From positions 1 to 23,903 of the IMG/VR virus record IMGVR_UViG_3300032241_000532: a stretch of DNA of 23,903 nucleotides; one strand, written 5' to 3'. The notes under the pieces are model-generated. The model ran no database searches. It had not been told where the DNA came from and saw nothing but the letters and a program-made list of their open reading frames with translations. Below are positions 1,043 through 23,811 of the stretch, piece after piece (position 1 is the stretch's first letter; each line of letters begins with the position of its first letter). The position numbers and the translations under genes were made by a program. This DNA comes from a virus.

Positions 1043-1426
1043 ATGGGTCACTCATACCGTCACATCGGTAGTGCGCTCCGAGGTGGATCAGCACTGCACT
1101 ATTCGGGTCGCTTCCTTGCGGCTTACGAGCCGTTCGTCTTGTCTTCGGTTGCGGTTAGTGAAAAACAACGAGAACTCACGCGCTCGTCGCAAACCGTCTT
1201 TTCCTTCACGGAGAGTGCATTTACGGTCATGTATCCAGCGATCGTTGGTTCCGGCCTCATCGTGAGAGACACTCCGACAGACCAGATGTATGCTGAACCC
1301 TCAACCGTTGCTGCACTCACAGACCCCGCGCCAACGGTTGCCGTAGAGAGTTCCACCACCGCCACCTTTGAGGAAGAGGCAGTAATCTCGTATGAGGAAG
1401 GCGCAAATAATCGAGGGAGCGTATGA
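1043..1426 (+). CDS. Hypothetical protein, 127 aa
   Basis: I do not recognise this protein. The start is taken as the ATG two bases after the TAG of the fiber remnant. No clear Shine-Dalgarno sequence is visible, so translation may be coupled to the upstream stop. Codon choice matches the neighbouring genes, and the end overlaps the next start by ATGA (1423-1426), which supports it as real. The N-terminal half is mixed and basic (MGHSYRHIGSALRGG, then SSVAVSEKQRELTRSS). The C-terminal half is rich in Ala, Val, Thr and Ser with an acidic end containing FEEEAVISYEEGANN. No signal peptide or membrane segment is evident. By position it is a virion-associated or neck accessory protein, but that is inference only. 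A TAGTGAAA site lies inside it at 1156-1163. Confidence 0.6.
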   Translation: MGHSYRHIGSALRGGSALHYSGRFLAAYEPFVLSSVAVSEKQRELTRSSQTVFSFTESAFTVMYPAIVGSGLIVRDTPTDQMYAEPSTVAALTDPAPTVAVESSTTATFEEEAVISYEEGANNRGSV

Positions 1427-1758
1427 CGTTTATTGAGTATCCAAGTCCGGCATCAAGCCTCCCAGACCTTCAGATCACATGGGAAGACCAGAACGGCAAC
1501 CCCATAGATTTCAGCACCGGCTGGACGTTCAAGATGACCATCGCACAGCCACCGAACCCTGCGAAGATTACGAAGATGAGTGGGTTTAGTGCTGGAAACG
1601 GAACCCCGAACCTGACGATCATGTGGAGCCCGAACGAACTCTCCACCCTCACTCCGGGTCGGTGGGCCTTTCAAGTGACCGCAACCAACGGGCCTTCGGG
1701 TGGCAAGCAGCGCATCTTCAATGGAACTATCCGCATTGACCAACCGATTATCTCTTAG
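1423..1758 (+). CDS. Ig-like / BppU-type beta-sandwich protein, 111 aa
   Basis: The start overlaps the previous stop by ATGA. The protein has the pattern of small phage beta-sandwich proteins: a strand with DLQITWEDQNGNPIDFS, a turn, GWTFKMTI, then a central NLTIMWSPNELSTLTPGRWAFQVTAT and a last strand IFNGTIRID. The 'tW.d.dG.pidls' opening followed by 'W....l..l.pG.y.~v.at' is shared with the N-terminal domain of baseplate upper proteins and with small proteins found next to head-tail connectors in siphoviruses. It probably decorates the neck or capsid. The fold assignment comes from sequence pattern alone. Confidence 0.55.
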   Translation: MTFIEYPSPASSLPDLQITWEDQNGNPIDFSTGWTFKMTIAQPPNPAKITKMSGFSAGNGTPNLTIMWSPNELSTLTPGRWAFQVTATNGPSGGKQRIFNGTIRIDQPIIS

Positions 1759-1759
1759 G

Positions 1760-1766
1760 TAGTGAA
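1760..1766 (+). promoter_or_regulatory. Atypical ribosome binding site made of the TAGTGAAA word
   Basis: AGGTAGTGA (1757-1765) sits directly before the ATG at 1767. It matches the anti-Shine-Dalgarno complement AGGAGGTGA at 7 of 9 bases, and the TAGTGAAA octamer overlaps the start codon. The same arrangement is found at 2673-2680. Confidence 0.5.
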
Positions 1767-2258
1767 ATGACTTGGACATACAGCGCAGACCCGACCTCAT
1801 CAAACAAAGACGCCGTTCGATACCTCATTGGGGACACGAACGCCGACGATCCGCTTCTGCAAGACGAAGAGATCAACTTCAATCTCCTTGAGGTGAATAA
1901 CAACATCTACCGTGCGGCAGCGAACTCATGTGAGAACCTTGCAGCCCGATACGCGACCCTTGCTCAGAGCACGTCAAAGAGCGTCGGTGGCCTCTCACTC
2001 AGTCAGTCGTATGGTGATCGTGGTCAGAGGTTCCTCACACTTGCTAAGCAACTCGTTGTGCGCGCACGAAAGGTCAATCCCCCGTTGGTCAATGCCGACG
2101 CAAAGGCACTCGGCGCAGAGTTTTCAGTAGGTCAGTTCGACCCCTATGTGGCTACGACGAACACTTGGCCTACAGATTCGACAACGGGTGTGACAACCAC
2201 TTACGGGACAGGCTACAGCCCTGACTACTCTGGTAATGAGGGTGGCGGTCAAGACTGA
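1767..2258 (+). CDS. Head-tail connector (adaptor) protein
   Basis: A 163-residue protein of the usual length for the adaptor that binds under the portal (HK97 gp6 / SPP1 gp15 type). The diagnostic N-terminal block is present: DAVRYLIGDTNADDPLLQDEEI at about residues 14-35, seen in many siphovirus adaptors as 'vR.liGDtd..dplL.DeeI'. It is followed by an alpha-helical stretch (NNIYRAAANSCENLAARYA) and a YGDRGQRFLTLAKQL helix. The C-terminal 40 residues are Gly/Thr/Tyr-rich and probably flexible. The gene begins 8 bases after the preceding TAG and ends in TGATG, sharing one base with the next gene. The protein adapts the 12-fold portal to the closure protein encoded next. Confidence 0.85.
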   Translation: MTWTYSADPTSSNKDAVRYLIGDTNADDPLLQDEEINFNLLEVNNNIYRAAANSCENLAARYATLAQSTSKSVGGLSLSQSYGDRGQRFLTLAKQLVVRARKVNPPLVNADAKALGAEFSVGQFDPYVATTNTWPTDSTTGVTTTYGTGYSPDYSGNEGGGQD

Positions 2259-2668: not shown

Positions 2669-2672
2669 GCGG

Positions 2673-2679
2673 TAGTGAA
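2673..2679 (+). promoter_or_regulatory. Second atypical ribosome binding site with TAGTGAAA
   Basis: GGTAGTGAA immediately precedes the ATG at 2680. The spacing and the word are the same as at 1760-1767. It supports choosing the ATG at 2680 over the internal ATG at 2686. Confidence 0.5.
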
Positions 2680-3096
2680 ATGACTATGGGCCCGAACTTC
2701 TCCATCAAGTTCGACACTACCGATGTTCGTCGCATGGAGCGCAACGGCAAGCGTCTGACGAAGGACTTGCGTCGAGCGGTCAATGAAGTGCTGACCATGA
2801 TCTTCAATGAGAGCCAGATACTCGTTCCTGTGGATACCGGCGCACTCAAGGCTAGTGGAAAGTTGATCCTCAGTTCCCCCGGTTCGACACGGTTTGATTC
2901 GACAATCACCTACGGTTCCGATGGTTCCGATGGTCGGCCTCCTGTCACCTATGCGGTTGAGGTTCACGAAGACCTGCAAGCGCATCACACCGAGCCAACC
3001 CAAGCGAAGTTCCTTGAGGTTCCAGCAGACCGCTACAGTTCCTATCTCAAGAAGAAGATTGGCATGACCGTCCGTGCCGTCATGGAGAAGAAGTAA
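2680..3096 (+). CDS. HK97 gp10-like neck / tail-completion protein
   Basis: A 138-residue protein with the HK97 gp10-like signature. The N-terminal strand is FSIKFDTTDVRRMERNG, followed by a helix with DLRRAVNEVLTMIFNESQ. Next comes the diagnostic PVDTGALKASG at about residues 48-58, then a strand region ending in TYAVEVHE and the terminal block QAKFLEVPADRYSSYLKKKI. In the family, this 'vDTGaLr.S' plus 'Ya.~vE~G/H' pattern marks the small protein encoded between the closure protein and the tail terminator. The end is TAATG, overlapping the next start by one base. Confidence 0.85.
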   Translation: MTMGPNFSIKFDTTDVRRMERNGKRLTKDLRRAVNEVLTMIFNESQILVPVDTGALKASGKLILSSPGSTRFDSTITYGSDGSDGRPPVTYAVEVHEDLQAHHTEPTQAKFLEVPADRYSSYLKKKIGMTVRAVMEKK

Positions 3097-3536: not shown

Positions 3537-3814
3537 ACGAGTTTGAGATGCTAGTGAAAACTGTGGAGGCGGCGAAGGCAGCCGCACTCGCATCGGCAGC
3601 CGCACTTGAGGCAGTTGAGTTGATGCTCGGTGGATCAGCAACAAGTGAGGTTGAGGAAGAGCCGGAACAAGAACTCGACCCCATTGAGCCTGAACCTGAA
3701 CCCGAAGGGTGCGACCACCGAGAGGGTGTGGACATTGAGGTTGGTTCGGGAAAGTTCCGTGTCTGCCCGTGTGGTTGGCAAGGGCAACTTGACGCACCCC
3801 CTATCGTAGAGTAG
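3533..3814 (+). CDS. Small acidic protein with a CxH...CxC zinc-binding-like end
   Basis: 93 residues in three sections. Residues 1-35 are a predicted Ala-rich helix (EMLVKTVEAAKAAALASAA). Residues 36-58 are an acidic Pro/Glu linker with the repeated EPEPEPE. The C-terminal module has Cys60-x-His62 and Cys78-x-Cys80, spaced like a small zinc ribbon or treble-clef knuckle (GCDHREG ... RVCPCGWQ). Proteins of this build occur among actinophage tail genes with no assigned role. The start overlaps the previous gene by ATGA. Metal binding is inferred from four ligands only. I see no catalytic motif and give no function. Confidence 0.65.
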   Translation: MNEFEMLVKTVEAAKAAALASAAALEAVELMLGGSATSEVEEEPEQELDPIEPEPEPEGCDHREGVDIEVGSGKFRVCPCGWQGQLDAPPIVE

Positions 3815-3823
3815 GGTAGTAGC

Positions 3824-4159: not shown

Positions 4160-4453
4160 ATGGCTAAGTCAAACCCCGCAGCACCAGCCTACGTAATCAC
4201 CAGCAAGTCGCCCATCTCGTACAGTGGCAAGCGTGTGGCTCCGGGAACCGTAGTCACCGACATTCCGGGTGAGAGCGTCACTTGGCTCTTGAAGGAAGGC
4301 TACATCAAGCCTGCACCCGTTGTCGCACCTGCACCTTCTAGTGAAATCCCACCGGCGACCGAGCCTGCACCCGAGCCGACCCCTCCGGTCGAGCCACCAG
4401 CCGCGCCTACTGAGGAACCGGCCGCCCCTGCTGAAACCCCTGCGAGTGCCTAA
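4160..4453 (+). CDS. Small protein with a Pro/Ala/Glu-rich tail
   Basis: 97 residues in two sections. Residues 1-50 hold a folded module (YVITSKSPISYSGKRVAPG, then VTDIPGESVTWLLKEGYIKP). Its 'G.r~.pG.vv.dip..s..WLl..G.I' pattern is common in short actinophage proteins encoded just before the tail genes. Residues 51-97 are a low-complexity run of Pro, Ala, Glu and Thr, with repeats such as PAPEPTPPVEPP, and are probably extended. Its last base is the first base of the tail-tube gene (TAATG), and the gene ends with the ribosome binding region of that gene. It may be an accessory factor for tail assembly; function unknown. Confidence 0.65.
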   Translation: MAKSNPAAPAYVITSKSPISYSGKRVAPGTVVTDIPGESVTWLLKEGYIKPAPVVAPAPSSEIPPATEPAPEPTPPVEPPAAPTEEPAAPAETPASA

Positions 4454-5658
4454 TGCCAACTCCTATCTTCCTTCACGGTAAGAACACACGGGTTCTCCTT
4501 TCGGGCGCACCGAACCCCTACGCCTATAACGTCAATAACACCATCACCGTTGCCCCGCCGGTGGATCAGAGCAACCAACTGCAAGTCCTCTCGGCAGACT
4601 GCCCCATCTTCCCCGGTATGGTCATCGGGCCGGATTGGAACACCAGTGACACGCTTCCGACGAGTAGTCATTTCACCTTGGACGCCTATGGCAACCCACC
4701 GGCCTATCAGAACTATGTCTTGGCCGTGTCTGGCTCCACGATCACTATGTCGTGTTATGTGGACGCCACGACTGCTGCGAGCAACAATGTTTCACTAACC
4801 GACCCTATGACTTTGCATGTTGGCATTAGTGCAGATACCGGCTATGCAACGGACAATGCTTCGTTTGATGTGTCGCAGTTCTTCAATGATGTGTCGGTTT
4901 CCACCACCGTCGAGAGCACGGAAACGACTACCTTCCAGACTGACGGATCAAAGTCCTACATCGCTGGCCTGAAGGACGGTCAGATGACCCTCTCTGGCTT
5001 CTACGATGGTACCTTGGGCGGCATTGACGCAATCCTCTCCAACGTGATGAATGCTCAGTCCTCACGACTTTATGGTGTAAATAACTACAGTGTTCCTCAA
5101 GGCATCGTGGTCTTCCCTGACGGTAATGCGAATAACTGCTTCATGGCTCAAGGCTTTGAGACGAAATACGATCTCAAGTCTTCTGTCTCTGGGGTTGTGA
5201 CCGTTGATGCTGATGTGCAAGTCACGGGAGGCGTTCGACGCGGTTGGGGAACCTACACGACGTTCGGCACACTTGACGGTTCTAGCACGAGCGCAACCGT
5301 GGCACTCCCCGCCTACCCGACGCAAACGGAGAACGGTGGACTACTGATCGGTGGAGTGACTGGAATCGTCGGTGCTGAAAACTTCCAACCCGACAACTTG
5401 CAAATCACTTGGACGCTCCAACACTCTCAAGACGGTCTGACTTGGGTGGACGACCTCGTGTTCTACGGTGGCGGCGACACTCTGACTACGAACATGGGGC
5501 TCGTTAGTGTAATCGCAGACAGTAAGAGCACTCAAGAATGGCAGATTTCCAATACGGTTTATCCGTATGTCCAACTACTTTTCACTATCTCAAACAGTGA
5601 CGGTACGAACACCGACCCTGTTTCCGTCAACTTCTACTTTGGGTTCGCCCGCTACTAA
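4453..5658 (+). CDS. Major tail (tube) protein 1, with extra C-terminal domain
   Basis: 401 residues. The first 255 or so are a tail-tube protein clearly related to the next gene. Shared blocks are FLHGKN (here) against FNHGKN, FFNDVSVS against WINDVDLP, ETTTFQTDGSKSYIAGLK against ETTTFSRDGVKTYIVGLK, LSGFYD against FSGMYD, and KYDLKSSVSGVVT against KYDVKSSVSGVVT. After about residue 258 there is a further beta-rich domain of some 140 residues (starting GTYTTFGTLDGSS and ending VNFYFGFARY) that the second copy lacks. It is probably an exposed surface domain, as in tube proteins with Ig-like decorations. It starts by a one-base overlap and ends before a clear AAGGAGA site for its paralogue. Confidence 0.8.
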   Translation: MPTPIFLHGKNTRVLLSGAPNPYAYNVNNTITVAPPVDQSNQLQVLSADCPIFPGMVIGPDWNTSDTLPTSSHFTLDAYGNPPAYQNYVLAVSGSTITMSCYVDATTAASNNVSLTDPMTLHVGISADTGYATDNASFDVSQFFNDVSVSTTVESTETTTFQTDGSKSYIAGLKDGQMTLSGFYDGTLGGIDAILSNVMNAQSSRLYGVNNYSVPQGIVVFPDGNANNCFMAQGFETKYDLKSSVSGVVTVDADVQVTGGVRRGWGTYTTFGTLDGSSTSATVALPAYPTQTENGGLLIGGVTGIVGAENFQPDNLQITWTLQHSQDGLTWVDDLVFYGGGDTLTTNMGLVSVIADSKSTQEWQISNTVYPYVQLLFTISNSDGTNTDPVSVNFYFGFARY

Positions 5659-5663
5659 GGAGA
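5657..5663 (+). promoter_or_regulatory. Canonical ribosome binding site for tail protein 2
   Basis: AAGGAGA overlaps the TAA stop of the previous gene and lies 9 bases before the ATG at 5673. It is one of only a few strong Shine-Dalgarno sites in the window, as expected for a protein made in many copies. Confidence 0.7.
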
Positions 5664-5672
5664 GCATCAACC

Positions 5673-6383
5673 ATGACAACCCCCATCTTCAATCACGGTA
5701 AGAACGCGTTTCTGGCCCTCGGTTTCGCTGAGGCCGCAAACTCGGACTTCCCCGGTCTCACCGGCTCGGTTGGTGGAAACGGTGTGCCCGGTGGCACTGC
5801 CGATACTGCACTTACCCTCTCGGCAACGGGAACCTTCGCTCAAATCAACACTCCACCCGTTCCGGGTAGCGATGAGTACGGAGCGTTCGTCGGTGGTGTT
5901 CCGATCATTACGACTGATGACATGACCTCAACCTCGGCAGTCACGCTCGGAGAGGCTGTGAACGCTGGTGGAATAGTTCTGCCGATGTACAACATCTCGC
6001 CGTGGATCAACGACGTTGACTTGCCCATCTCGATTGACCCGAACGAGACCACGACCTTCTCGCGTGATGGTGTAAAGACCTACATTGTCGGTCTCAAGGG
6101 TTGGTCACTCACCTTCTCTGGTATGTATGACCAGACTGACGGAAGCATGGACTACTGGATCAGCCAGATGGAGGCTTACCAAGACACTCCGGGTCAGTTC
6201 ATTACCTTCGTGTACGGCCCTGCCGACCCGGGTCAGTACGGCGGTTCCACCATCGCTCCTTCGGTCAAGTATTACGGTCAAGGTATCCTCACGAAGTACG
6301 ACGTCAAGTCCTCGGTGTCGGGCGTTGTGACCTTTGATAGTGAAATCCAGCCCACGGGTAAGGTCTGGCGGACTATCATCTAG
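5673..6383 (+). CDS. Major tail (tube) protein 2
   Basis: 236 residues, the size of a plain siphovirus tube subunit. It shares at least five conserved blocks with the 401-residue protein before it, including GKN near the N-terminus, ETTTF..DG.K.YI.GLK in the middle, and KYD.KSSVSGVVT near the end. It lacks the extra C-terminal domain. The N-terminal 90 residues are Gly/Thr-rich and diverge from the paralogue. A strong AAGGAGA site precedes it, and the chaperone gene follows 24 bases later, where a tube protein is expected. It could be the main tube subunit, with protein 1 as a second ring type or a tail-end subunit. Which one forms the tube cannot be told from sequence. Confidence 0.8.
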   Translation: MTTPIFNHGKNAFLALGFAEAANSDFPGLTGSVGGNGVPGGTADTALTLSATGTFAQINTPPVPGSDEYGAFVGGVPIITTDDMTSTSAVTLGEAVNAGGIVLPMYNISPWINDVDLPISIDPNETTTFSRDGVKTYIVGLKGWSLTFSGMYDQTDGSMDYWISQMEAYQDTPGQFITFVYGPADPGQYGGSTIAPSVKYYGQGILTKYDVKSSVSGVVTFDSEIQPTGKVWRTII

Positions 6384-6390
6384 GTTATTC

Positions 6391-6402: not shown

Positions 6403-6407
6403 CAACC

Positions 6408-6794
6408 ATGTCAGACCTTGCAGCCAAAATCTTCGCCGTCGAAGACATTGAGAGTGAACTCGTTGATGTAGAAATCTGGGGCGTGACCGTCCTAGTGAAA
6501 TCTATGACTGCTCGCGCTCGCCAAGGCATGATTGCTCGCACGGTGGACGAAAACGGCAAGATGGACATTTCGCAGGTTCTCCCTGAGATGGTGATCGCCT
6601 GCACCTACGACCCTGAAACCGGCGAGAAGGTCTTCAAGGACAGTGACCGTGAGGCACTGCTGGCGAAGTCCGCAGCCGCAATCGAACAGATTTCTACCGT
6701 CGCTATGCGCCTCTCTGGTATGACTGCTGAGGCTGTGGCTGCGGTGGGAAAAGACTTGCCCTCGACGCAGAACGACGCTTCCTCTTTGAGTTAG
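6408..6794 (+). CDS. Tail assembly chaperone, short (zero-frame) product
   Basis: 128 residues, the zero-frame product equivalent to lambda gpG. The N-terminal region is a folded domain (LAAKIFAVEDIESELVDVEIWG ... TARARQGMIARTVDE), followed by acidic helical sequence. It carries a canonical slippery heptamer G GGA AAA at 6746-6752, read GTG GGA AAA GAC in the zero frame (codons 113-116). Beyond the slip, translation runs on for 13 more codons to TAG at 6792-6794. The position between the tube protein and tape measure genes and the overlapping second frame are the hallmarks of the G/GT pair. Chaperones of this type coat the tape measure while the tube assembles and are absent from the virion. 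Confidence 0.85.
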   Translation: MSDLAAKIFAVEDIESELVDVEIWGVTVLVKSMTARARQGMIARTVDENGKMDISQVLPEMVIACTYDPETGEKVFKDSDREALLAKSAAAIEQISTVAMRLSGMTAEAVAAVGKDLPSTQNDASSLS

Positions 6795-6940: not shown

Positions 6941-6942
6941 GC

Positions 6943-6951: not shown

Positions 6952-6954
6952 AAA

Positions 6955-12700: not shown

Positions 12701-15700
12701 CAGAACCCAACGAAGTCCACCTTGCCTCACGAACAGACACTCGACGGTCGAACGGGTGCTGCTGCCTTCCGTTCCCCGTTCCTCTGGAAGTTGGCTCCGG
12801 GTCAGAAGTTTCACTACGACCATAAGGCGGGCGAACCTGTCTCCACGCCGAACTTGCCCTACCGACTTCCGAGTTTCAGCAAGACTGCCCATGCCAAGAA
12901 CGCTCCGATCCTCGGCGCACCGGACAACGCAGTTGTCTATGACATTACGAATGGCACGAACTACACGGCGGCTGCGGCAATCGTCGCATCAAACCTTTCC
13001 GGCGACCTCTTCGTCAATGCTGAAACCGAAATCGCTGTCGGACACCCGTGGGTTGAGGCTGGCGTCAATGGGCAACCGAACACCGCAACGATCCTCGTCA
13101 GTGACACTCCGGCTCGTTCATCGCACATCAAACTCGCTACAAGCGCAGGACAGCCGACTACTGAAATCACGCCAGTCTTGCAGAGTGGACTGACGGTTCT
13201 CCCGCCAGAGATCGCTCGATTGGCCGGTGACGTCGTGCTGACCGATGCCAGCATTGAGGCAGTTCTTGACACCCATGTCGCTGACGTCACGGCAGTCGTG
13301 GTTGGAGCCCCCACACCGACTTCACAGACCTACACGGTTCAGAACATCACCAAGATTGACAACTCACCCTACGGCTACCACCTTGAGGTTGAGACAACGG
13401 ACTACGCCGCCATCACAAGTCCGGGGTATGCTTACATTTCACTAACCAGCGTTTCGCCAAGTGATTTTGACATTTCTTCGTACTTGACCTTCGTTGCCGA
13501 GCCGGTTCAGAACTACACGGTTTATAACGCTGCGAAGTATTCCAGCACGGTCGCTACCTATGCCTTCTTGACGAGCAAAGACCCGAACCTCAATCTGGGC
13601 GACCACATAACGGTTAGTGGTTTCACTGGAACTCATGCTTCTGAACTCAATGTCACGAACGGCAAGGTTGTCGGGATTGACGTCCACCCCTACACTCCGG
13701 GCGGCTTCTCTTACACCACCTATGACGTTCAGGTTCCCTCTGGATCAACCTTTAGTTGGGTTGGCGGCTACGGAACCGCTGTTCCACCTCAGAAGTTTAC
13801 AATCACGGTTGATGCCCTTCCAAGTGACACCTACATCTCTGGTGGAACCGTCACGGTCTTGACCCCCGGAACCATCACGGTCTCGGCAACCAACAACTTC
13901 TCTGTCGGTGATCAGGTTGCCTTGAGTGGACTTTCACCATCTAGTCTCAATACGGGTGCTTACGATACCTACTGGTACACCGGCGACTTGTCGGACTTCC
14001 AAACGGGGCTCGGATACGGTGTAGTGAAATCTTCGTCAGGGTCATCGTTCACGCTTGAGTGCGGTCCTCAGCAGAAGTCCGATCCTTCCATTGAGACCAC
14101 CGCCACGCCCATCTACGACCCGCCTGCTGGAACTTACAGTGGTTTGTCGGGTATCGCCTACCGATTGACCGCACTAGAGGTCACGGCTCCGAATGGCGAT
14201 GCGAACAGTCTGACGGTCGGTGGTGTAATCTCCGGCTCTTACATTCAGTCCGGAACCACCGTTATCTCTATTCCCAATGAGAGTAAGTTCGTTATCAGCA
14301 AGCCGCCGATGGACGTTCCCGCCGATGGAGCAGACGTCACACTTACTTACGGTGCTGCGGAAGCGTATCTCCTTGATGTGGTGGAAACCGCAAAGATACC
14401 GAGCACTCCCTTCTACATCACGGCTGGTAGTGACCAAGTTCAGGTGCAGGCGGTTGCAACCAATCCCGATGGGGGATTGCGATTTGTCCTCAATACGCCG
14501 ATCACTACCTCGCACTCCGACCTCACGCCGATCCACCTTGCCCATTGGCCGCAAGACACGGAACTCCGTCGCATCGCTGCTCCTTATGCCTACTTGACTG
14601 ACCCGCTTGAGATTTCAGCATACGGCTCTCTGTATGTGACCCCGTTGCCATGCAAGTTCCCTGCCGGAATAGTCCTCTATGTCACAAGTCCAGATGGGTT
14701 CCAGCAGTCCTTCACGCTCGCAGATGACGCGCAGGTAGGCGACACGGTTCTCTACGCTCTCAAGTCCTCTGCGGTCATTTCTGACACTACTGTCGGTTCC
14801 ACACTTCTTACTCCCTCGGTTGTCACAGCCACCTTGTATGTTGGACAGCCGATCTCGGGAACCGGCATTGACTTCGGCACGACGATTGCTGAAATCCAAT
14901 ACTCGGCAGATGGAGTAGTCAGTTCCATCACACTCTCCAACCCTGCAACCGCAGATGGAACGGCCACTCCGCTTGACCTCGGTGAGGATTTCACTACGAC
15001 CTCTCTCTACCCTGCAACGAGTGGAGCCAACGGGTTCTTCACGACTACGGGCGATGAGACCGGAACCCCATCAGTCGGAACAGTCATCACCACCGGCTTC
15101 TACGATGACCTTCCCACGGGTGCGACCTTGTTCCTCGGCAACGATGCCACCTTCTCAACTTCGTGGTTCCCGCTTGACCCTTCTGACCCGTCCGTAGTGA
15201 AATCCTACGCAACCGAGTTTGCGAGTGACAGCGTGGCGATTGAGGTCGCAAAGCACACTCCGAAGGGTGAGGCAGTTGTCCCTGTCGTGCCGTTCCAGCC
15301 GAACTCTGTGTACGACACTCAACCATTCCCTATGCAGTTCACGCCGAACTCTTACGCTGCTGGAAACCCGAACATCATCATCTACTCAGTCGGGGTCTCG
15401 CACATCAAGGGCGATGGCATCAAACTCACTTTCACGACCGCTACGACGCACAACTTCTCGGTTGGTGAAACCGTAGAGGTTGGCGGTGGGTTCTCCATCA
15501 CAGGAACCGTGCAAGACGTTCTCTACAGTGGTGGAAACCCTACCGGCTTCACGATCCTCGGCACGACTGTCGTGGACAGTGACTACTCCAATGTCTTCGC
15601 ATCATCGCAGAGTATCAAGGTTGGGCTGCGGGTTTCCAGCACGGAACTCCCTGCTTCTGATGCAACCTTCATTCAGGCGATTGCCGATGCCACCCTCTAC

Positions 15701-18700
15701 TCGACCACTTACAACACTGAGGGCAACCTCGGCAACATTCTCAACGTTACTGAAAAGGGTCTTGGCTACTTTATCCAGATCGACGCAAATCCCTACCCGA
15801 ATGTGGCGGGTTCCAACGGCCTGATCAAGATTACGGGAGCCTCACCTTCAGCACTCAACGTCGCCAACATACCTTGGGACGATACGCAATACAACTACCC
15901 TTCGTATGTCAAGGGTCAGAAGTATGACCGTTGGTTTGGCAACCTCTCGGCGTATTCCACCGACGCTACTGCACAGACATTTACCGGCTACTTGCCCTAC
16001 CCTGATGAGGGCATCTTTGACCCCTCATTCTTCGTTCCGGAGAGCGTGAACGTCGGAGACCATGTGACCTTCGGCAACGGAACCTTGAGTGGTGCTGGAA
16101 CCGTTGCGAGCATCACGCAACCGACGAGTACCAGTGAGGGTCAAGTCGTTGTCAACGTCACCTCGTCTTCCCCGACCTTGACAACGATTGCGAGAACCTC
16201 AACCACCTCTGGGTTTATTGAGCAACCAGCCAACGTGTATTGGCTTGGCTTGCCTAGTGAAATCACTTGGAGTAGTGGCGGGAAACTAACTTCGGGAACC
16301 CTGAACTCAACCTTCACGGGTACGCAAATCACCTTGAGCCATGCACCGCAAACTGCGCTCGGTCGCCCATTCGTGATCCATTCGTCTTCTTTGACTGCAC
16401 CGAGTTCTCTGACCCTCGGCAGTGGTGGAAATCAAGAGGTGGTGTATCCTGCGACAATCCCGACCACGGCAGATGGCGGTCGCACTTACTCTGTTCGACT
16501 TGCACACGCTACCCGCAAGCCGCACGATGCTGGAAACCCAACTCAAGACTACCAATACCCCGACAATCCTTCTATCGGGGACGTGACCTATCGCCCCGAC
16601 CTCTCTGGTCTGTTCATGTGGGACGGAACCACTTGGCGATCAGCACGGTGCATGGGCGTTCGTGGCATCTACTCCTTGCTCGGCCCGAAGTTCGGGAACG
16701 GTCTAGTGCAAATCAGCATCGTGGATAGTGTGACCGGCAATGAGGCGGCTGCGGATACCTTCTCCAACCTCACTCCTACAGGTTGGAAGACTTATCATGG
16801 TGGAAACCACGCTACTGACCCGAACAAGCAAGAGTGGACGGGCGACAGCCTCTCAAGCCTGCGCTTCCACATCAACGCGCGAGTGCCACTTGACAGTTCC
16901 ATCGGGTTCCGGAGCATTTCACTAGAGGCCGACTACGTTGCTGCCCCCTTGTGTGACGATGTGTTCCTCTCGCCTTCCGACAGCATGGTCATCACGAAGG
17001 GTTCGCAGCACTTCGTTGGCTGGCAGTACGACGGTATGGGAGACAACCAGACCGGCTGGGAGGTGAAAATCTACACCGACGAGCAAGTGAGTGGCGATGG
17101 GTTTGACCCCGCCTCAACCGAGCCCGTTTACCGCATCTCTGGGAACGATGACGCAGCGCAGACGGAGATTACGACTGCATACAACTGGATCAACGGACGT
17201 CGCTACTGGGCGTATGTCCGAGTTGCTAAAAACTTCCAGAACAGGCATTGGTGGAGTGATTGGAAGAGCCGTTCCTTCTATCCGATCCTCAACCAGCCCT
17301 CAACCCCAACCGTCACGGTCTATACCGATGATGAGAACTCTTGTACTGAAATCGTTGTGCAGTCTGCCGACAACTTGCTCGGCCCGAACAACGGTTCATT
17401 CACCAACAGTGCAGGTGGGTGGGACGTCACGAGCAACGACACGGCCGGGACTTCGCTTGATGTATTGGCAACGGCAATAACGACTAGTGAAATCATTCCG
17501 ACGGGCAAGCACATTCGCAGTATCCCCATCGGTGCAGACGGATACCTTCGCACCGCAATCACCACGACCTCGCAGTGTGGAGATGTTCTGGTCTGGGGAC
17601 ACGCTCGACGCAAGTCTGACCCTATTGGTTTCCCAATCTCAGGTCAGTTCTGGATCACCATCGGTTCTGAGGCAATCCTCGTTCACAATAAGGCAGATGG
17701 CAACAACTCCGGAGACCATTTCACTATCCTTGAGCGCGGCTACAGAGGCACGACGCCTGCAACGTACGCTGTCGGTGCGGCTATCTCCTACGGCTTGCAA
17801 GATGACGTCTACATCGGATCAACCGGACTGATTTCGTGGCATGAGAAGGTAAAAACCTCGTGGGCAACAAAGGAGAATGTCGTTGTCCGTTATGTCGGTG
17901 GCAAGGCTGGTGTCGGTGGGAGCGCAGGCACGGGCCCTCAAGTTCTCAACTCGGCACGCCTCAAGGTGGAAAGTGGAAGCGGCAGAGGAACGGCGGTCAA
18001 TGGTTCCGGTGGTGGGTTCTATGTCTTTGATCCAAACGGCTACCTGACTGACGGTTGGGTTGGTCAAACCGCATACCTTGACTACCACGAAGCCGGAGTT
18101 CCCCTTGAGCCCGTGGTGATTACGGGTGTCTCTCGCGTCGGCACAGGTGCGAATGGCAAGACCGCCATTTCGTCCAACATTCAGTTCGGTAAGGTTCACG
18201 GAGACACGGTTCTCGCACAGACGCAACTTGGTGGAATGTTTGGTAAGACTTACTACTTACCATTCAACTGCACCGCAACTCCAACGCAGTTGAACACGGC
18301 ACTCACCGGCAACTCGGTTATTCCACCAGAGCATAGTTCTGTGGGTATCTTCCACAATGTCTCCGGATCGTTGTGGATTGCGAATGTTGAGTGGAAGACG
18401 AACGACGGAACCTACGCCTCGGCCTCTTACCCTGCTACCTTCGCTGGTGCTGGTGGAATGGGTCAGTTGCTCACGGCGATCGAATACGGCGTTATGGGGT
18501 CTCAGTTCTCTTACAGTGGCTCGTCTGGTGGTGTCGGGCCGGCAAAGGGCAACATTGACACTCTGCCCGTGAACATCAGCCTGCCGCGTCCTCCGCACAC
18601 TCCACATGGCAAGGGTGGCGAGTGGTTCATTCCGGGTGGAACAAACATCTATCTCACGGGTGTTCCGAAACTGTCTCAAGACGTCAACGTCCACATCTCA

Positions 18701-21238
18701 CGGCCTCACGGTCACGACTTCGCAACGAACTTCGTTGGTGGAAAGACTGAACTCGTCCTCAACCATGTCATCGTGCAAGGAACGCCCGGCACGCCTTCGC
18801 ACGGTGGGGTTGCTGGAACGCCGGTCTATGGCACGAAGACTGTCCACCATGACGGTCTCAACGAGATTTCAGTAAACCAAGACATTGTGGTCAGTTTCCC
18901 AACCGAGCAACCGCCGACCATCTTGCAAGGAACCTACGGCAACTGGTCTGGCTCTGCCTTCTCGCCGGTGGATCACTCCTTTGTGCCGCAGTATTTCACC
19001 GGACAGGCTTCGGACACGGGTGCTGGCCCTGACACGAACACGATCTACGACCTCTCGATTTCCACCTCGCTGCTCACGACTGCGATGCGAGTGTCGGTCA
19101 ATGATGACCTTGCCGCAAACCAAGTCACGGTAGATGGCACACCCGCCGTCTATGACCACACCACGATCACCATTTTGAACCCGACTGCACACTCGATTAC
19201 GCTCAACAAGCCGGTCAAGAGCACTGCCTACTACGGAACAACCACGCCGTATCGTGCGACGCCAATCTTCAACGCTGTGGAGTTTTCAGTAAACCCAAGC
19301 GTGAGTGCCGGAGACGCAATCATCGGTCAAGGTATCCCTGATGGTGCAACGGTCACATCGGTCATTACCTCTGGTGGAAAGTGGATCGTGCGCTTTACGA
19401 ATGGCAACGCCTCAGCCGGAGAGGTGCAGTATTCCGCACTTGACCCCGTGACGAACCGTCCGGTCAGTCCGGTCACGACGAACTCGTTTATGTTCGTTTC
19501 AGCACCGGCAACGGTTATCCCCGCCGGTTCTCGCAGTCTCCCTGTGCGCCCCTTCAAGCCTTCCAACCGTATCCTTGCTGGAACGCCGGTGACTGTGACC
19601 TTCCCCGTGCAGTTTGGAACCCACGCTCTCGGCATCTTCCCGAGTGCGAACGGAACTAGTGAAATCTCTACGCTGGCGAACGGGTTTGACGGATCGTGGA
19701 CACCTCGCAACTCAGTTCCGGTCATCGCTGGACTTGACTACGGGTTCATGGGTTGGTCGTGTTCTGTGGTTGGTTCGACGCTGATTGAGTTCGTCACCTC
19801 GATTGACTGGTGCGGTGAGGACGGAAGCCTCATCAGTTCAACAGCCTCAAATGTCGTTCCCGGAGACACGCCGACCTCGTATCTTCGCTACCTCAACGAT
19901 TTCACTAACACCGCTGCGACTGTGAACTACACACCCGGCGGTTGGTCGCCAGCCGTTGCCTTCGGAACTGCTCCCGATGGTGCTGCATACGCCGTGACAC
20001 GCTGCACTTGGAACGGCATCACCACTTCAGATGTGGTTGCGCTGTGCGGTCTTTCCTTCAAGGCTCTGACCTCGACCGACCCACTTTCCACCATCAGTAG
20101 TGCGAAGACCGTCTCGACCAGTCTCTCGACCACGATCCTCAATGCCCTCAACCAGACGGTTGATAACTCTTCCACCTCAAACGCCCTCAACTTGCCTCTC
20201 GGAACTCCGTATGAGGGCTACTCTGCACTCTTCGTTCTTGAGCCTGCGACTGCGAACCAAGAACTAATCCTCGGTGGTAGTGAAAACTACCTCTCAACTG
20301 TCCTTGTGTCTGACGCTGCGGCTGGCGACACCGCCATTCAGTTGCAGAACACCTTTGGACTTGCCGCTGGTGCATCACTCACCGTTGGCTACCAGAACGA
20401 AGTTAGTGAAACCGTGACGGTCACTCCTGATTGGGACGGGACAAGCAACGTGACCATTAGCGCGCTCGCAAACGACTACCCTGCTGGAACTCCGGTCTGG
20501 GCAGATGTGTTCGGTCTTGCTCGGGCTGCGACCCTTCCTCACGATGTTGGATCAGCAGTTGCAGTCATGGGCTACGGCGTGGACGGATACGTCAATGCTG
20601 CAAATGAAGGGCTGCAATACAAGGTTGAGCGCAGTACCGATGGTGGAATAACTTGGCAAACGCTCTGGCGGGGAGCCAACCTCGTGTCGGGCAATAATGG
20701 GCGAGCCGTACTTCGTGATTACGAAGTTGCGAATGGAGAAGTGGTGGAATACCGCGTCACTCCAACCTTCGTGATTGACCCGGCAGTCGGTAAGCCGATC
20801 TCGGGGCCGACCACTCGACCAATCCAGTCAGTTCCGATTGAGAACGGATCGTGGTATCTCGGTTCGACTTCCGATGAGACGCTGCGCTTCAAGGTTCTAG
20901 TGCAAAACGCCTACACCGAGCAGCAGCAACACACTTCCGGTGTGTTCTATCCTCTTGGCTCAAGTCGCCCGATCACCGTCGCCGGTGTTCCGACAGGTCG
21001 CGATGGAGACATTACGATTACTTGGACGGACTTGGAACAATACGACAACTTCCGTTCCATGATTTCTCGTGGTGAAACCTTGCTCTTGAGTAATCCGGTT
21101 GAGGGTAGGGTCATGTACATCTTTATCAACCAGAATGTTCAGTTTACCAATAACGCTGCGGCCAACCCGTGGCGCGACATTGAGATACAGTACGTTGAGG
21201 CTGCCCCTCCGGGCTTCGGCTACACCTACGGGAGTTAG
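9713..21238 (+). CDS. Giant 3,841-residue tail-tip protein with a C-terminal distal-tail-type domain
   Basis: One uninterrupted frame of 11.5 kb between the tape measure and the DUF5047-like gene, the slot of the distal tail protein. Its last 120 or so residues (about 3721-3841) resemble the actinophage distal/minor tail domain: LRFKVLVQNAYTEQQQHTSG, GVFYPLGSSRPITV, a DGDITITW strand, LLLSNPVEGRVMYIF and WRDIEIQYVEAAPPG. Before it is an FN3-like segment near 3633 (YKVERSTDGGITWQTL), and another FN3-like pair lies at about 2415-2540 (GWEVKIYTDEQ, YWAYVRVAKNF). The rest is Thr/Ser/Gly/Val-rich beta sequence with recurring fiber modules: GDHITVSG and GDQVALSG near 1296 and 1399, and an 'ISGtgI..GTTV..I' module near 1508, 1716 and 3205. 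There is no signal peptide, and no catalytic motif I can name. It probably forms a very large tail-tip fiber or baseplate skirt. Confidence 0.8.
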   Translation: MKPYFSKPNYTDVSGPNWTVVNASDGTQALNDLSALAVKTVAETPYGGYVTAAHADPIFSMFSATSVLSTKSRGTRWTVNELSGNVRDTGDTFVYVDSVEGFTKGQVAAILEGISQDPQGDAANTSVSPDAFYSEWLDIGSVGLIPASPTTPATSDNCLYFPVNASTWFTPITSGQFDQQGVAGAITPAYVGSTAPDPSRALYISASADQQARDNLLTLLPDWVGPLQVTAISVASDKTTVTLLGTTLGLAQGQTLTIANSYNGMGFWAGIITGLSETTVTGHTVITTTLTTANQGSGSFDVPANLGGYVLPSDVAAGRYCLAFAATLTDTNGVPTVFTVNNTSNALGVTFFTTPYLATTVNTDQSFVTQVEGLGQKVRYYFPATGATGAPNQPPSASAVGQFPIVTVTGIWPQEFNVYGAEIVNCNAGSSYFEVLSSATDDATVSLDYATATFYLPGSVDSDGNAVDGSHYGANLFFPINVVAIDGPPVATFQAMSDATSVTVGGTTYPNARVISVDDVSNIFVGQHLAFREEYTQNLSTTATATASSNTLNFSGHVVANHYSITGVSDAVAAQLGIGAPLTKTGGGTGWPAGTYITNIYNVGTNNNTVVTNHPWRSTTQTCNHHTLTNSISTTATGLTGDVVTVASVNDWFPHHSGSVLTVVSNSGGHFTIQDENGLNQAPNSVKSSATITFASANQPSWYVIDVNSADTTFTIACSSLSAGTVYTVTGQDAPDGSAPVNQPMVYANGASANDIYAYDSQVDEGATLDVAGGTTGAGVIAFTGVADDVKWNHVAGTVVGSYDFGPRYIGSETVGDLEVIDPIHIGSRTQARLHHKIKRGAQEFSVNANPNTLGHGKIDIYGTYYSYDTYGNTVGWLPNTGIGGFTTLADYYGLGRIDSGYFTNGSAYVTGVANAARFFTIGDTVEIVNDVSYTYLPANTTIIGAVNNGNKGWTLWLSNAYNGSNGYQQLRVNIATCHTVIVGSGETAEAVVVITQNPTKSTLPHEQTLDGRTGAAAFRSPFLWKLAPGQKFHYDHKAGEPVSTPNLPYRLPSFSKTAHAKNAPILGAPDNAVVYDITNGTNYTAAAAIVASNLSGDLFVNAETEIAVGHPWVEAGVNGQPNTATILVSDTPARSSHIKLATSAGQPTTEITPVLQSGLTVLPPEIARLAGDVVLTDASIEAVLDTHVADVTAVVVGAPTPTSQTYTVQNITKIDNSPYGYHLEVETTDYAAITSPGYAYISLTSVSPSDFDISSYLTFVAEPVQNYTVYNAAKYSSTVATYAFLTSKDPNLNLGDHITVSGFTGTHASELNVTNGKVVGIDVHPYTPGGFSYTTYDVQVPSGSTFSWVGGYGTAVPPQKFTITVDALPSDTYISGGTVTVLTPGTITVSATNNFSVGDQVALSGLSPSSLNTGAYDTYWYTGDLSDFQTGLGYGVVKSSSGSSFTLECGPQQKSDPSIETTATPIYDPPAGTYSGLSGIAYRLTALEVTAPNGDANSLTVGGVISGSYIQSGTTVISIPNESKFVISKPPMDVPADGADVTLTYGAAEAYLLDVVETAKIPSTPFYITAGSDQVQVQAVATNPDGGLRFVLNTPITTSHSDLTPIHLAHWPQDTELRRIAAPYAYLTDPLEISAYGSLYVTPLPCKFPAGIVLYVTSPDGFQQSFTLADDAQVGDTVLYALKSSAVISDTTVGSTLLTPSVVTATLYVGQPISGTGIDFGTTIAEIQYSADGVVSSITLSNPATADGTATPLDLGEDFTTTSLYPATSGANGFFTTTGDETGTPSVGTVITTGFYDDLPTGATLFLGNDATFSTSWFPLDPSDPSVVKSYATEFASDSVAIEVAKHTPKGEAVVPVVPFQPNSVYDTQPFPMQFTPNSYAAGNPNIIIYSVGVSHIKGDGIKLTFTTATTHNFSVGETVEVGGGFSITGTVQDVLYSGGNPTGFTILGTTVVDSDYSNVFASSQSIKVGLRVSSTELPASDATFIQAIADATLYSTTYNTEGNLGNILNVTEKGLGYFIQIDANPYPNVAGSNGLIKITGASPSALNVANIPWDDTQYNYPSYVKGQKYDRWFGNLSAYSTDATAQTFTGYLPYPDEGIFDPSFFVPESVNVGDHVTFGNGTLSGAGTVASITQPTSTSEGQVVVNVTSSSPTLTTIARTSTTSGFIEQPANVYWLGLPSEITWSSGGKLTSGTLNSTFTGTQITLSHAPQTALGRPFVIHSSSLTAPSSLTLGSGGNQEVVYPATIPTTADGGRTYSVRLAHATRKPHDAGNPTQDYQYPDNPSIGDVTYRPDLSGLFMWDGTTWRSARCMGVRGIYSLLGPKFGNGLVQISIVDSVTGNEAAADTFSNLTPTGWKTYHGGNHATDPNKQEWTGDSLSSLRFHINARVPLDSSIGFRSISLEADYVAAPLCDDVFLSPSDSMVITKGSQHFVGWQYDGMGDNQTGWEVKIYTDEQVSGDGFDPASTEPVYRISGNDDAAQTEITTAYNWINGRRYWAYVRVAKNFQNRHWWSDWKSRSFYPILNQPSTPTVTVYTDDENSCTEIVVQSADNLLGPNNGSFTNSAGGWDVTSNDTAGTSLDVLATAITTSEIIPTGKHIRSIPIGADGYLRTAITTTSQCGDVLVWGHARRKSDPIGFPISGQFWITIGSEAILVHNKADGNNSGDHFTILERGYRGTTPATYAVGAAISYGLQDDVYIGSTGLISWHEKVKTSWATKENVVVRYVGGKAGVGGSAGTGPQVLNSARLKVESGSGRGTAVNGSGGGFYVFDPNGYLTDGWVGQTAYLDYHEAGVPLEPVVITGVSRVGTGANGKTAISSNIQFGKVHGDTVLAQTQLGGMFGKTYYLPFNCTATPTQLNTALTGNSVIPPEHSSVGIFHNVSGSLWIANVEWKTNDGTYASASYPATFAGAGGMGQLLTAIEYGVMGSQFSYSGSSGGVGPAKGNIDTLPVNISLPRPPHTPHGKGGEWFIPGGTNIYLTGVPKLSQDVNVHISRPHGHDFATNFVGGKTELVLNHVIVQGTPGTPSHGGVAGTPVYGTKTVHHDGLNEISVNQDIVVSFPTEQPPTILQGTYGNWSGSAFSPVDHSFVPQYFTGQASDTGAGPDTNTIYDLSISTSLLTTAMRVSVNDDLAANQVTVDGTPAVYDHTTITILNPTAHSITLNKPVKSTAYYGTTTPYRATPIFNAVEFSVNPSVSAGDAIIGQGIPDGATVTSVITSGGKWIVRFTNGNASAGEVQYSALDPVTNRPVSPVTTNSFMFVSAPATVIPAGSRSLPVRPFKPSNRILAGTPVTVTFPVQFGTHALGIFPSANGTSEISTLANGFDGSWTPRNSVPVIAGLDYGFMGWSCSVVGSTLIEFVTSIDWCGEDGSLISSTASNVVPGDTPTSYLRYLNDFTNTAATVNYTPGGWSPAVAFGTAPDGAAYAVTRCTWNGITTSDVVALCGLSFKALTSTDPLSTISSAKTVSTSLSTTILNALNQTVDNSSTSNALNLPLGTPYEGYSALFVLEPATANQELILGGSENYLSTVLVSDAAAGDTAIQLQNTFGLAAGASLTVGYQNEVSETVTVTPDWDGTSNVTISALANDYPAGTPVWADVFGLARAATLPHDVGSAVAVMGYGVDGYVNAANEGLQYKVERSTDGGITWQTLWRGANLVSGNNGRAVLRDYEVANGEVVEYRVTPTFVIDPAVGKPISGPTTRPIQSVPIENGSWYLGSTSDETLRFKVLVQNAYTEQQQHTSGVFYPLGSSRPITVAGVPTGRDGDITITWTDLEQYDNFRSMISRGETLLLSNPVEGRVMYIFINQNVQFTNNAAANPWRDIEIQYVEAAPPGFGYTYGS
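18590..18721 (+). other. Histidine-rich segment of the giant protein
   Basis: Residues about 2960-3003 hold His2962, His2965, His2994, His2999 and His3001, the last pair as HGH in RPHGHDF. The surrounding protein has few histidines. HxH motifs coordinate metal in some trimeric phage fibers, for example the T4 long tail fiber tip. Metal binding here is only a suggestion. Confidence 0.35.
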
Positions 21239-21240
21239 TC

Positions 21241-22842
21241 ATGTATCCGGCTAGTGAAAAGTTCTACAACTCACTCAAGGGCTCGCACCGTCCCATGATT
21301 ATCGTGAAGGCGAAGTCCATTGACGGAACCTTCGCCAACGTCTCGGTTTCTAGCGGCTCAGTCAAGGTGGACCGCACTTCTCAAGACGCTCGACGCACTT
21401 GCTCACTGACGATCAACGACCCGACCCTTGTGCCAATCATTTCCACCGACCCGCTTGGCATCTACGGCAACCACCTCTACATCTACAGAGGCGTTCTGTG
21501 GAACATGGACGGTATCGGTGAGGAACTTTTCACTAGTCCGCCCCCACTCACGAAAGAACTCCGCGCTCCGGCCAATGGAGCCTACGAACTCGTCCCCCTC
21601 GGCGTGTTCCGCATCAGTTCCGTGGACATCACCGAAGACACTCAAGGCGACATCACGATCTCGGTGGACGGTGCTGACATTTCCTCCAACATCTCTAAGA
21701 ACGCTTGGACGAACCCCGTCACCGTTTGGAAGACCGCATACAGGGTTCCCGTTCCGAAGACTTCCACCACAGCGGAGCAGACCTATGTGGCGAACACGAT
21801 GCAAGAAGCCCTCAAGTTGCTCATCAACGACAGGTGGAGTATCGGCAAGAAGTCAGTCTTTGGTGAAACGCAGTTCAACTTTAGTGGCGTCGCAGACATG
21901 CCCCTCGCTCGACCAGTCATCATGGGTTCGGCCAACATCTCGACCTCCGGGTCAAACTCGCCGTGGGTGGATTTCACTGGACTTGCCACGTCACTCGGAG
22001 CCGAACTCTTCATTGACGCAGACGGAGCCTTCACGCTCAAGCGGCTACCTGACCCGAACACCATTCCACCTATCTGGTCGTTCCTCGACGGTGAGGGTGG
22101 ACTACTCACGAACGCTCAACGGAAGTTGGACGTGGACAAGGCCATCAACTACGTCATCGCTACAGGTGAAAACACGGGTGCGAAGCAAGCACTCAAGGCG
22201 ATTGCCTTTGACGGCGATCCAGCATCTCCGACCTACTATCAAGGTGAGTTCGGTCGAGTGGTTGGTCGAGAGAGTGGTAGAAAGAAACTGACTACCCAAG
22301 CGCAGGTGCAGAACGCTGCCGATACCTACCTCAACTGGTTCGTCGGTGGCGAAGAGGCTGTGACCATCGAAGGCATCGTAAACCCGGGCCTTGACACCGG
22401 CGATGTGGTGCTGATCCGACGCAAGGCAGTCGGCATCTACAACCCCTACGCTACGCTTGCGGAACTGTCCAGCCCACTTCGCAACGACGGGAGTTCGGCG
22501 ATTAGTGAAATCCTCACTACTCCACTCAAGAAGCCTCTCGCGAAGGGAACGAAGGTCGTGCTCTACACCTACTCAGCAGAGGACGTTGTCACTGTCGCAT
22601 CGCACTACCCAGCCGGAGCAACTGACATTCAGGTAGAGCCGTTCTTTCCGAAGGTGGAATACTACAAGTCCACTCCCGTTCTTGACACGAATGACACCTC
22701 CAACAACGGAGCCGTGCCGTACTACATTGACCAACTGACTATTCCACTAGACCTTGACAGTCCCGTGCAAATCACAGCCCGCAGCCGCCGAGTTGGATCG
22801 AAGCAAGACGCTATCCGTGTGGCCGAGTATCAGCAGAACTAA
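21241..22842 (+). CDS. DUF5047-like minor tail / hub protein
   Basis: 533 residues, starting two bases after the giant gene's TAG. The N-terminal third has the actinophage DUF5047 pattern: SEKFYNSLKGSHRPMIIVKA, a GSVKVDRTSQDARRTCSLTI strand pair, YGNHLYIYRGVLW, and VPLGVFRISSVDITED. It is followed by DGADISSNISKNAW and a helix with MQEALKLLINDR. The middle contains a sheet with LGAELFIDADGAFTLKRLPDP, which fits the hub fold of tail-associated proteins. The C-terminal part has GEEAVTIEGIVNPGLDTGDVVLIRRK, typical of the last hub domain. It should form the central ring of the tail tip, between the distal-tail protein and the spike encoded next. It ends in TAATG. Confidence 0.8.
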   Translation: MYPASEKFYNSLKGSHRPMIIVKAKSIDGTFANVSVSSGSVKVDRTSQDARRTCSLTINDPTLVPIISTDPLGIYGNHLYIYRGVLWNMDGIGEELFTSPPPLTKELRAPANGAYELVPLGVFRISSVDITEDTQGDITISVDGADISSNISKNAWTNPVTVWKTAYRVPVPKTSTTAEQTYVANTMQEALKLLINDRWSIGKKSVFGETQFNFSGVADMPLARPVIMGSANISTSGSNSPWVDFTGLATSLGAELFIDADGAFTLKRLPDPNTIPPIWSFLDGEGGLLTNAQRKLDVDKAINYVIATGENTGAKQALKAIAFDGDPASPTYYQGEFGRVVGRESGRKKLTTQAQVQNAADTYLNWFVGGEEAVTIEGIVNPGLDTGDVVLIRRKAVGIYNPYATLAELSSPLRNDGSSAISEILTTPLKKPLAKGTKVVLYTYSAEDVVTVASHYPAGATDIQVEPFFPKVEYYKSTPVLDTNDTSNNGAVPYYIDQLTIPLDLDSPVQITARSRRVGSKQDAIRVAEYQQN

Positions 22843-23786
22843 TGCCTGACGCCCCAATCACCCCTCAACAAACGAATAGCCAGACGCCGGTTCCACCTGT
22901 TCCGAAACTCGGCAAGCCGAACCCCAGCATTGACTTCCGCAACCTCGCGAACTCAATGGTCGCGAACCGACAGTTCCACCTCCCACCGAACGATGTGACG
23001 CGTATGGGGGAAGTGGTTGGCTATGACCCGAACTACGTCACCGATGACCCGACAGCACCGGCTCCTTACTACGACTACCCGACTGTTTCAGTAACCTTGG
23101 CGGGCGACGATACGCCGATGCACGGGTTCCGGTTCATGGAGCACTACACACCGACGATTGGCGACACCGTTTGGGTGCAGATCAGTGGTGAAGACGGGTT
23201 CGTCCTCGGCAAGTTGAGTGGAGCCTACAATACGGTTTCCAATGCCCCTACAGGCAACTCACCGACAACCTTGCTCGGTCATTCATACGCTACGGCGGGA
23301 CAGCAGTGGCAGATTACAAGTGCCGAAGTGGATTTCACCATTGACGGTATTACTCAAGCGGTCAATGTCCTTCCGAACCGCAAGTATCGCTACGAAATCA
23401 ACTACAGCATCTACACACTGGTCTATCCCCCCGCAAGTGGTGTAAACCACATGACAGTCAAGTTGCAACCAACGCTCTCACCGAACTCTTACGGTTCGCC
23501 GGTCACGATTGACTACCTCAATGATTTCACTAGCAGCACGAACTCAAGTGGTTCTCCGATTGCCGCACAACAACGACTGTCAGGGACGATGACCGGCTAT
23601 TGGAGTTATTCGCCATCAGCACCGATCATTCCGGGTGAGTGGACAACATGGTTCCCGAATGGGCAGTTGCAGTTAGGAATGATCGGAAAGTTGACGTCAC
23701 TCGGTTCCACCTCTGATGATTTCTTGGGTGAGTTGCAGATTACTGCGATGGACATGGCCATCTACGACTGTGGACTTGCTGGATAA
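22842..23786 (+). CDS. Minor tail protein with an OB-fold spike domain
   Basis: 314 residues with a one-base overlap with the hub gene. Residues 1-45 are a Pro/Gln/Thr-rich leader. Residues about 50-130 look like an OB-fold barrel: RMGEVVGYDPN, PTVSVTLAGDD, GFRFMEHYTPTIGDTVWVQI and EDGFVLGKLSG. The 'p.~GD.Vwv....~~.~VlGkl' ending is typical of puncturing-device and hub-attached OB domains. Residues about 145-314 are a separate beta-sandwich beginning WQITSAEVDFTIDGI, with PNRKYRYEINYSIY, as found at the ends of actinophage minor tail proteins. The protein probably caps the hub and carries a binding or trimerising domain. A TTTCACTA site lies in it at 23525. Confidence 0.7.
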   Translation: MPDAPITPQQTNSQTPVPPVPKLGKPNPSIDFRNLANSMVANRQFHLPPNDVTRMGEVVGYDPNYVTDDPTAPAPYYDYPTVSVTLAGDDTPMHGFRFMEHYTPTIGDTVWVQISGEDGFVLGKLSGAYNTVSNAPTGNSPTTLLGHSYATAGQQWQITSAEVDFTIDGITQAVNVLPNRKYRYEINYSIYTLVYPPASGVNHMTVKLQPTLSPNSYGSPVTIDYLNDFTSSTNSSGSPIAAQQRLSGTMTGYWSYSPSAPIIPGEWTTWFPNGQLQLGMIGKLTSLGSTSDDFLGELQITAMDMAIYDCGLAG

Positions 23787-23811
23787 GGTAAGCCGTAGTG
23801 AAATCATGGCC

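Follow-up and report, generated by a model that had tools for sequence, protein, structure and literature searches.

Over-represented recognition words form a known broad class of DNA signal. Chi acts in one orientation, and protein p6 of phage phi29 is thought to read bendability, not a fixed word. Stoperators are 13-bp asymmetric repressor sites. Each genome has ~20–30 of them, most of which share an orientation and occupy short intergenic spaces; when reversed, they do not work (PMC6550527, PMC9283540). Uptake sequences, over-represented and evenly spread, are found in the genomes of competent bacteria (PMC1939737). In cyanobacterial genomes, the palindrome HIP1 is linked with methyltransferases (PMC4390886). 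Here, we describe a dense array of short words, the TRSTGRAA family, in viral DNA (IMG/VR record IMGVR_UViG_3300032241_000532, positions 1–23903; one strand, 5' to 3'). The whole 23,903-base stretch is referred to as the window. It belongs to a clade of actinobacterial siphophages with dense word arrays. Within a limited literature search, the combination of properties described below matches no known member of the class. Searching by word sequence gave leading matches unrelated to phage genomes, and a limited search on stoperators and over-representation gave no matching paper.

Related contigs were obtained using the tail protein encoded at 21241–22842 (+ strand; DUF5047, phrog_1887) as the query. 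All sequences are metagenomic contigs, mostly incomplete, except those of two isolates, Nesbitt and Shagrat. Genes were called by a simple open-reading-frame rule and some spurious frames are included (for example c127, antisense to Gam).

A first-pass annotation, made from the sequence alone, had counted 21 forward and 14 reverse copies of TAGTGAAA in the window and put the chance expectation below one. Exact counting returns the same copies at the same positions. The word is the commonest 8-mer of the window, with 35 copies compared with 0.58 expected from an order-3 Markov model. Codon-preserving shuffles, which the annotation had named as a challenge to its claim, did not reproduce the word. 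In 500 synonymous-codon shuffles within the annotated genes, the mean was 1.5 and the maximum 5 copies; 31 are observed. We also used a harder null, annealed synonymous recoding, that preserves proteins, codon usage and, nearly exactly, all 4-mer counts. Applied to a larger gene set containing 33 copies, this left 1–2. Preserving all 5-mer counts, themselves inflated by the word, still left only 5–10. Codon effects do not account for the TAGTGAAA excess, which is real.

Single-base changes of TAGTGAAA identified the over-represented family TRSTGRAA. In the window, TAGTGAAA (35 copies) is accompanied by TGGTGGAA (29), TGCTGGAA (17), TGCTGAAA (14), TGGTGAAA (12) and TACTGAAA (10). The total is 117 sites on both strands, or ~1 per 200 bp, spanning 1156..23803. 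There are only 2 copies of TAGTGGAA, and most other one-base neighbours of TAGTGAAA are likewise not over-represented. The word had been annotated with a trailing TC. The core is real but the TC is only a preference: the base 3' of TAGTGAAA is T 20 times, C 8 times, A 7 times and never G. The resulting consensus, T-R-S-T-G-R-A-A, is usually followed by T or A and next by C, and the bases immediately upstream show weak preferences. The word is asymmetric and ~10 bp long. No bipartite partner or flanking motif was found within 100 bp of family sites. Besides the word, a search of the window for other repeat families or tandem repeats gave only short, chance-like families. The window has 11 forward and 3 reverse copies of TAGTGAAATC.

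The array lies almost entirely in genes (113 of 117 window sites; 60 sense and 53 antisense). Forward TAGTGAAA copies encode Ser-Glu 13 times (12 in called genes, plus that at 1156 in an open reading frame) and Val-Lys 5 times, as first reported. Pooled over eight phages, family variants are enriched on both strands in the frames that are not blocked by a stop. Enrichment peaks where the frame encodes Ser-Glu or a comparable pair, and for the G-rich variants it is weak or absent in one reverse frame. Window genes offer 310 positions at which the protein permits a word, and 37% are filled. At a spacing of 55 bp, this amounts to ~60% of the maximum that could be packed in. The array is kept in coding sequence largely via codon choice, on both strands. 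The annotated view of a DNA-level word that constrains codon choice, and not a protein motif, holds in the shuffles, the recodings and all open frames.

The sites obey a spacing rule. No gap between family sites in the window is shorter than 56 bp. Uniform placement predicts 25 gaps below 50 bp and none is observed; random draws among amino-acid-permitted positions give 20.9, with a minimum of 11 in 300 draws. With seven phages pooled, pair correlation is 0.02–0.06 below 40 bp, 0.30 at 40–50 bp and 0.57 at 50–60 bp, returning to ~1 from 70 bp. Across these phages, 29 pairs are separated by 10–50 bp compared with ~306 expected. Exclusion, which reaches ~40–60 bp, is the same in all four orientations (observed/expected at 10–50 bp: ++ 6/84, -- 10/85, +- 8/70, -+ 5/68). 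The leftover close pairs are near the level of chance words, indicating that a second close site is not favoured; harm from such a site is not implied.

Exclusion works as an assay of family membership. TRSTGRAA variants, AGGTGRAA and, in relatives G407 and G410, CAGTGAAA are mutually exclusive. Conversely, TTTTGGAA and TTTGGAAA are enriched yet show no exclusion with the TRSTGRAA family. We dropped TTTGGAAA as a family member; it also lacks clear self-exclusion. Separately, TTGGAA and TTTGGAAA are strongly over-represented in G406, G407, G001 and G004 and do not exclude TRSTGRAA, pointing to a second, independent word bias.

Mapping the word in related phages, as the first-pass annotation had suggested, showed that most related contigs, up to 121 kb, carry the same array. 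It is strongest in the window, G002, G406 (108.7 kb), G407 (121 kb), G409, G410 and G413, and weaker in G412. Relatives of 110–120 kb have ~350–450 family sites. The annotation had placed the word throughout the structural genes. This is so in the window, but the word is not confined to them; in relatives it extends through replication and other genes. Sense and antisense copies number 98 and 92 in G409, and stand at ~2:1 in G406 and G407. Array and exclusion are also present in L269, L271 and L274, contigs found via another gene. G003 has little of the word. The two isolated phages, Nesbitt and Shagrat, have a distantly related tail protein and are without the word. Tape-measure and tail-tube queries found no relatives.

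The phages differ in dialect. TAGTGAAA is used by G406, G409 and the window, and CAGTGAAA by G407 and G410; TGSTGRAA is common to all. In G001, TAGTGAAA is absent and TGSTGAW words exclude alike (6 pairs at 10–50 bp, ~35 expected). G004 was found by scanning viral contigs for two TAGTGAAAT within 30 bp, without any protein information. It was thus chosen for one word pair and its clade membership was established afterwards. It has mainly TAGTGAAA (48 copies, 2.8 expected) and CAGTGAAA. Several proteins of G004 (L035, L186) bear repeated KGGPGSGRH tags; relatives have KGDVAGHPFHGNQW and the short peptides are apparently interchangeable. In the G004/G414 and G407 groups, contigs are 99–100% identical across different metagenome samples. 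Words also persist in place. Between G002 and G406, at 29% DNA divergence, 57% of family words are kept compared with 10% of reversed words, and the mismatch per column is 0.185 within words and 0.287 overall. Other genome pairs were too close, too few or gave no clear result.

In seven phages, the array has its longest gaps at a single homologous position, flanked by tail gene c3 and the replication genes. This core island has 10 sites compared with ~106 expected. In G001, counted as an eighth phage, the island is not depleted of that phage's own, shorter words. Encoded in the core island are a Mu Gam-like end-protection protein (on the opposite strand), a Sak4-like AAA protein and two small, apparently membrane-anchored products. 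From gene type and strand, the genes around Gam and Sak4 are probably early genes. Other islands coincide with small opposite-strand gene clusters encoding amidoligase and glutamine amidotransferase. In one of these (G406, L218:4710–6571) the glutamine amidotransferase adjoins the amidoligase; relatives of both occur elsewhere in the clade.

A strong pressure against certain palindromes might, in principle, generate such an array. The window genes are entirely without ATAT, TTAA, AATT and AGCT (0 compared with 56, 99, 113 and 130 expected, respectively). Also avoided in the window are CCAGG/CCTGG (0, 44 expected), GGATG (1, 38 expected) and GTWAC (2, 54 expected). Related phages lack differing sets (CATG, GATC, CGCG, TGCA, ACGT), with AGCT (almost) always lacking. 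This avoidance channels codon choice, and the array could be a by-product of it, of codon usage or of codon-pair bias. We find this scarcely credible. The annealed recodings that keep all 4-mer counts keep nearly all avoidance, yet the word collapses, and on this basis the palindrome-avoidance version was rejected. Enrichment in all open frames and on both strands likewise rejects codon-pair bias. Furthermore, the islands retain the avoidance (AGCT 0) yet are without the word. Intact avoidance also indicates that the islands are not simply recent imports. The word family, the spacing rule and the restriction-site avoidance all go beyond the first-pass annotation.

Orientation-blind action, saturation within ~50 bp, spread over most but not all genes and dialects are expected of sites for a DNA-binding protein that needs genome coverage. 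Hence, we tentatively favour the interpretation that a sequence-specific DNA-binding protein, most likely encoded by the phage, recognises each copy and serves ~50 bp. One bound protein would serve or occupy ~50 bp, such that a nearer second site would bring no added benefit. Selection would act on genome coverage at ~1 site per 200–300 bp, which would compact, silence or shield the phage chromosome and leave the genes around Gam and Sak4 open. Among the functions first offered for the word, a binding site is favoured by the orientation-blind exclusion, the dialects and the islands; nothing speaks positively for packaging, uptake or segregation. The role envisaged, a protein covering a phage genome, is like that of phi29 p6 and other phage histone-like proteins. 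The difference is that a fixed word is used here, and its reader stands at candidate level.

Several observations weigh against a binding protein of this kind. Spacings pooled over seven phages have no helical phasing at 10–11 bp, and so give no sign of protein-protein contact between neighbours. G004 carries the word without exclusion, though its density is low. The major capsid gene (phrog_1005) is site-poor (1 compared with 6.8 expected after correction for amino-acid capacity), but low capacity partly accounts for this depletion. The major tail genes, whose expression is presumably high as well, retain sites. The proposal that highly expressed genes lack the word is weakened accordingly.

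The first-pass annotation had proposed looking for a conserved DNA-binding protein in genomes sharing the word. One such protein was found. It is small and combines a LexA-type winged helix with a C-terminal CxHDWR...CxxC segment, a putative zinc ribbon. It is present in 8/8 contigs covering its locus, and LexA_DNA_bind scored above the Pfam cut-off in 6/6 of the proteins tested. The structural model, of medium confidence (pLDDT 67), is a winged helix that matches LexA domains. Judged by sequence and model, this protein is a candidate reader of the word. However, it is also encoded by word-poor G003, so presence alone is insufficient for an array. Nor can the dialect be read from its recognition helix. 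Both points count against the DNA-binding protein interpretation. A gene-content comparison gave no clear candidate for a reader confined to phages with the word, and the membrane protein c19 was dropped as a reader on its sequence. A more specific proposal is that a dialect-specific, phage LexA-type protein reads the hundreds of words and coats or partitions the chromosome. This would be sequence-programmed phage chromatin, with the Gam and Sak4 genes left open and relatives having switched dialect. We regard it as possible but doubtful.

A helix-turn-helix protein also raises the option of stoperators proper, repressor sites halting transcription in a prophage. Like those of Cluster A mycobacteriophages (read by gp71 of L5 and the TipsytheTRex repressor), the words are short, asymmetric and dispersed, related dialects occur in related phages, and a repressor-like helix-turn-helix protein is conserved. 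The array nonetheless differs in number (117 in 24 kb, ~350–450 in 110–120 kb), in its position within genes, in its mixed orientation (60 sense, 53 antisense) and in its regular spacing. As to the cognate monomeric repressor that stoperator phages encode, the candidate here would be the conserved LexA-type protein with its putative zinc ribbon. No integrase was found among the proteins scanned, which were a subset of the total. We therefore consider stoperators very unlikely. The annotation had already set the word apart from both stoperators and Haemophilus uptake sequences. Number, position and orientation agree with it for the former, and the failure to find a word-bearing bacterium for the latter.

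Chi, another over-represented 8-mer class with degenerate variants, offers a different comparison. Chi-like or exonuclease-pausing sites might protect DNA ends made by restriction. These phages are under extreme restriction pressure and have a Gam-like protein for end protection. Even so, exclusion is independent of orientation, whereas Chi acts in one, and the host-side genomes examined are not enriched for the word. Such a function is highly improbable.

Alternatively, a DNA methyltransferase could target the word and so mark the DNA of its own phage, for which a mark every few hundred bases would be enough. HIP1 provides a precedent, being a word associated with methyltransferases (PMC4390886). 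Like TAGTGAAA, it is the most over-represented 8-mer of its genome, and relatives have alternate words. An N6_N4_Mtase protein is encoded by G407, G409 and G406, the last with two tandem N6_N4-type genes (L214:18490–19497 and the next gene). From sequence, this enzyme is a second candidate reader, in which case the array would be methylation marks. Unlike HIP1, TRSTGRAA is not palindromic, is not in a cellular genome and follows a hard spacing rule. The sequenced parts of G410, G412 and G001, partial contigs with the array or a dialect, have no good N6_N4_Mtase homologue. Methyltransferase targets are not known to be enriched as self-marks with a hard 50-bp exclusion, and the site-free islands are left unexplained. 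On balance, we think methylation unlikely.

Finally, an uptake-type molecular drive could spread the word, if word-bearing fragments were preferentially recombined into the phage gene pool and a second nearby word added nothing. Haemophilus uptake sequences, over-represented, evenly spread and kept by drive, are a precedent (PMC1939737). As in Haemophilus and Neisseria, the copies are on both strands, mostly coding and more even than random. The phages also encode an exonuclease, a Sak4-like protein, a RusA-like resolvase and Gam. By contrast with uptake sequences, the words belong to phages and not to the bacterial genomes examined, the density of the family is several times higher and exclusion ranges over ~50 bp. 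In addition, dialects differ between related phages, and the Sak4-like and Gam genes themselves lie inside a site-free island. Such a drive seems distinctly unlikely.

The bacterial comparisons bear on a further doubt raised at the outset, that the word might be equally common in the host. The host is probably an actinobacterium, as indicated by a WhiB-like gene and by distant relatives that infect Streptomyces, Rhodococcus and Gordonia. We scanned 84,980 species genomes for two TAGTGAAATC within 30 bp. At window density a 3-Mb genome should have ~16 such pairs; ~15 are expected by chance over the whole collection, given even base composition. The scan returned 51 stretches and no genome with many scattered pairs. 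In 396 genomes from the phylum of an Ilumatobacter assembly, the word was at or near chance level, with at most 12 copies each. In five bacterial genomes studied in detail, the TRSTGRAA family was not enriched. A host word is thus rejected for the genomes examined; the true host may be missing from collections.

Within the window, exact forward copies of TAGTGAAA lie at 1156..1163, 1760..1767, 2673..2680, 3552..3559, 4339..4346, 6338..6345, 6493..6500, 7436..7443, 8373..8380, 10537..10544, 12145..12152, 14022..14029, 15195..15202, 16255..16262, 17485..17492, 19657..19664, 20278..20285, 20404..20411, 21252..21259, 22503..22510 and 23796..23803. Those at 1760 and 2673 overlap the start codons of the genes at 1767 and 2680, respectively. 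Exact reverse copies lie at 4790..4797, 5580..5587, 8082..8089, 10015..10022, 11722..11729, 12367..12374, 12809..12816, 13437..13444, 14989..14996, 16917..16924, 17719..17726, 19900..19907, 21528..21535 and 23525..23532. The left end (1..1155) is site-free, and the open reading frame at 3–959 has 18 protein-allowed positions without a word. Forward-strand genes with sites include the tape measure gene (6955..9675) and a gene for a 3841-amino-acid tail protein (9713..21238) that holds about half of all sites. Counterparts of this single gene in relatives encode ~2400 to 4500 amino acids. Also on the forward strand and with sites are two tandem genes at 4453..6383 (4453–5658 and 5673–6383). Both match major tail proteins, and related phages have such a pair too.

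Should a phage protein read the array, phage DNA would have a genome-wide, sequence-programmed organisation, written by codon choice and with dialects shifting between relatives. This would provide a testable model for the spread of a word over a genome, in which the reach of the reader could be measured from the spacing rule without experiment. The 37% of permitted window positions that are filled also show that DNA-level signals can dominate a phage's codon choice.

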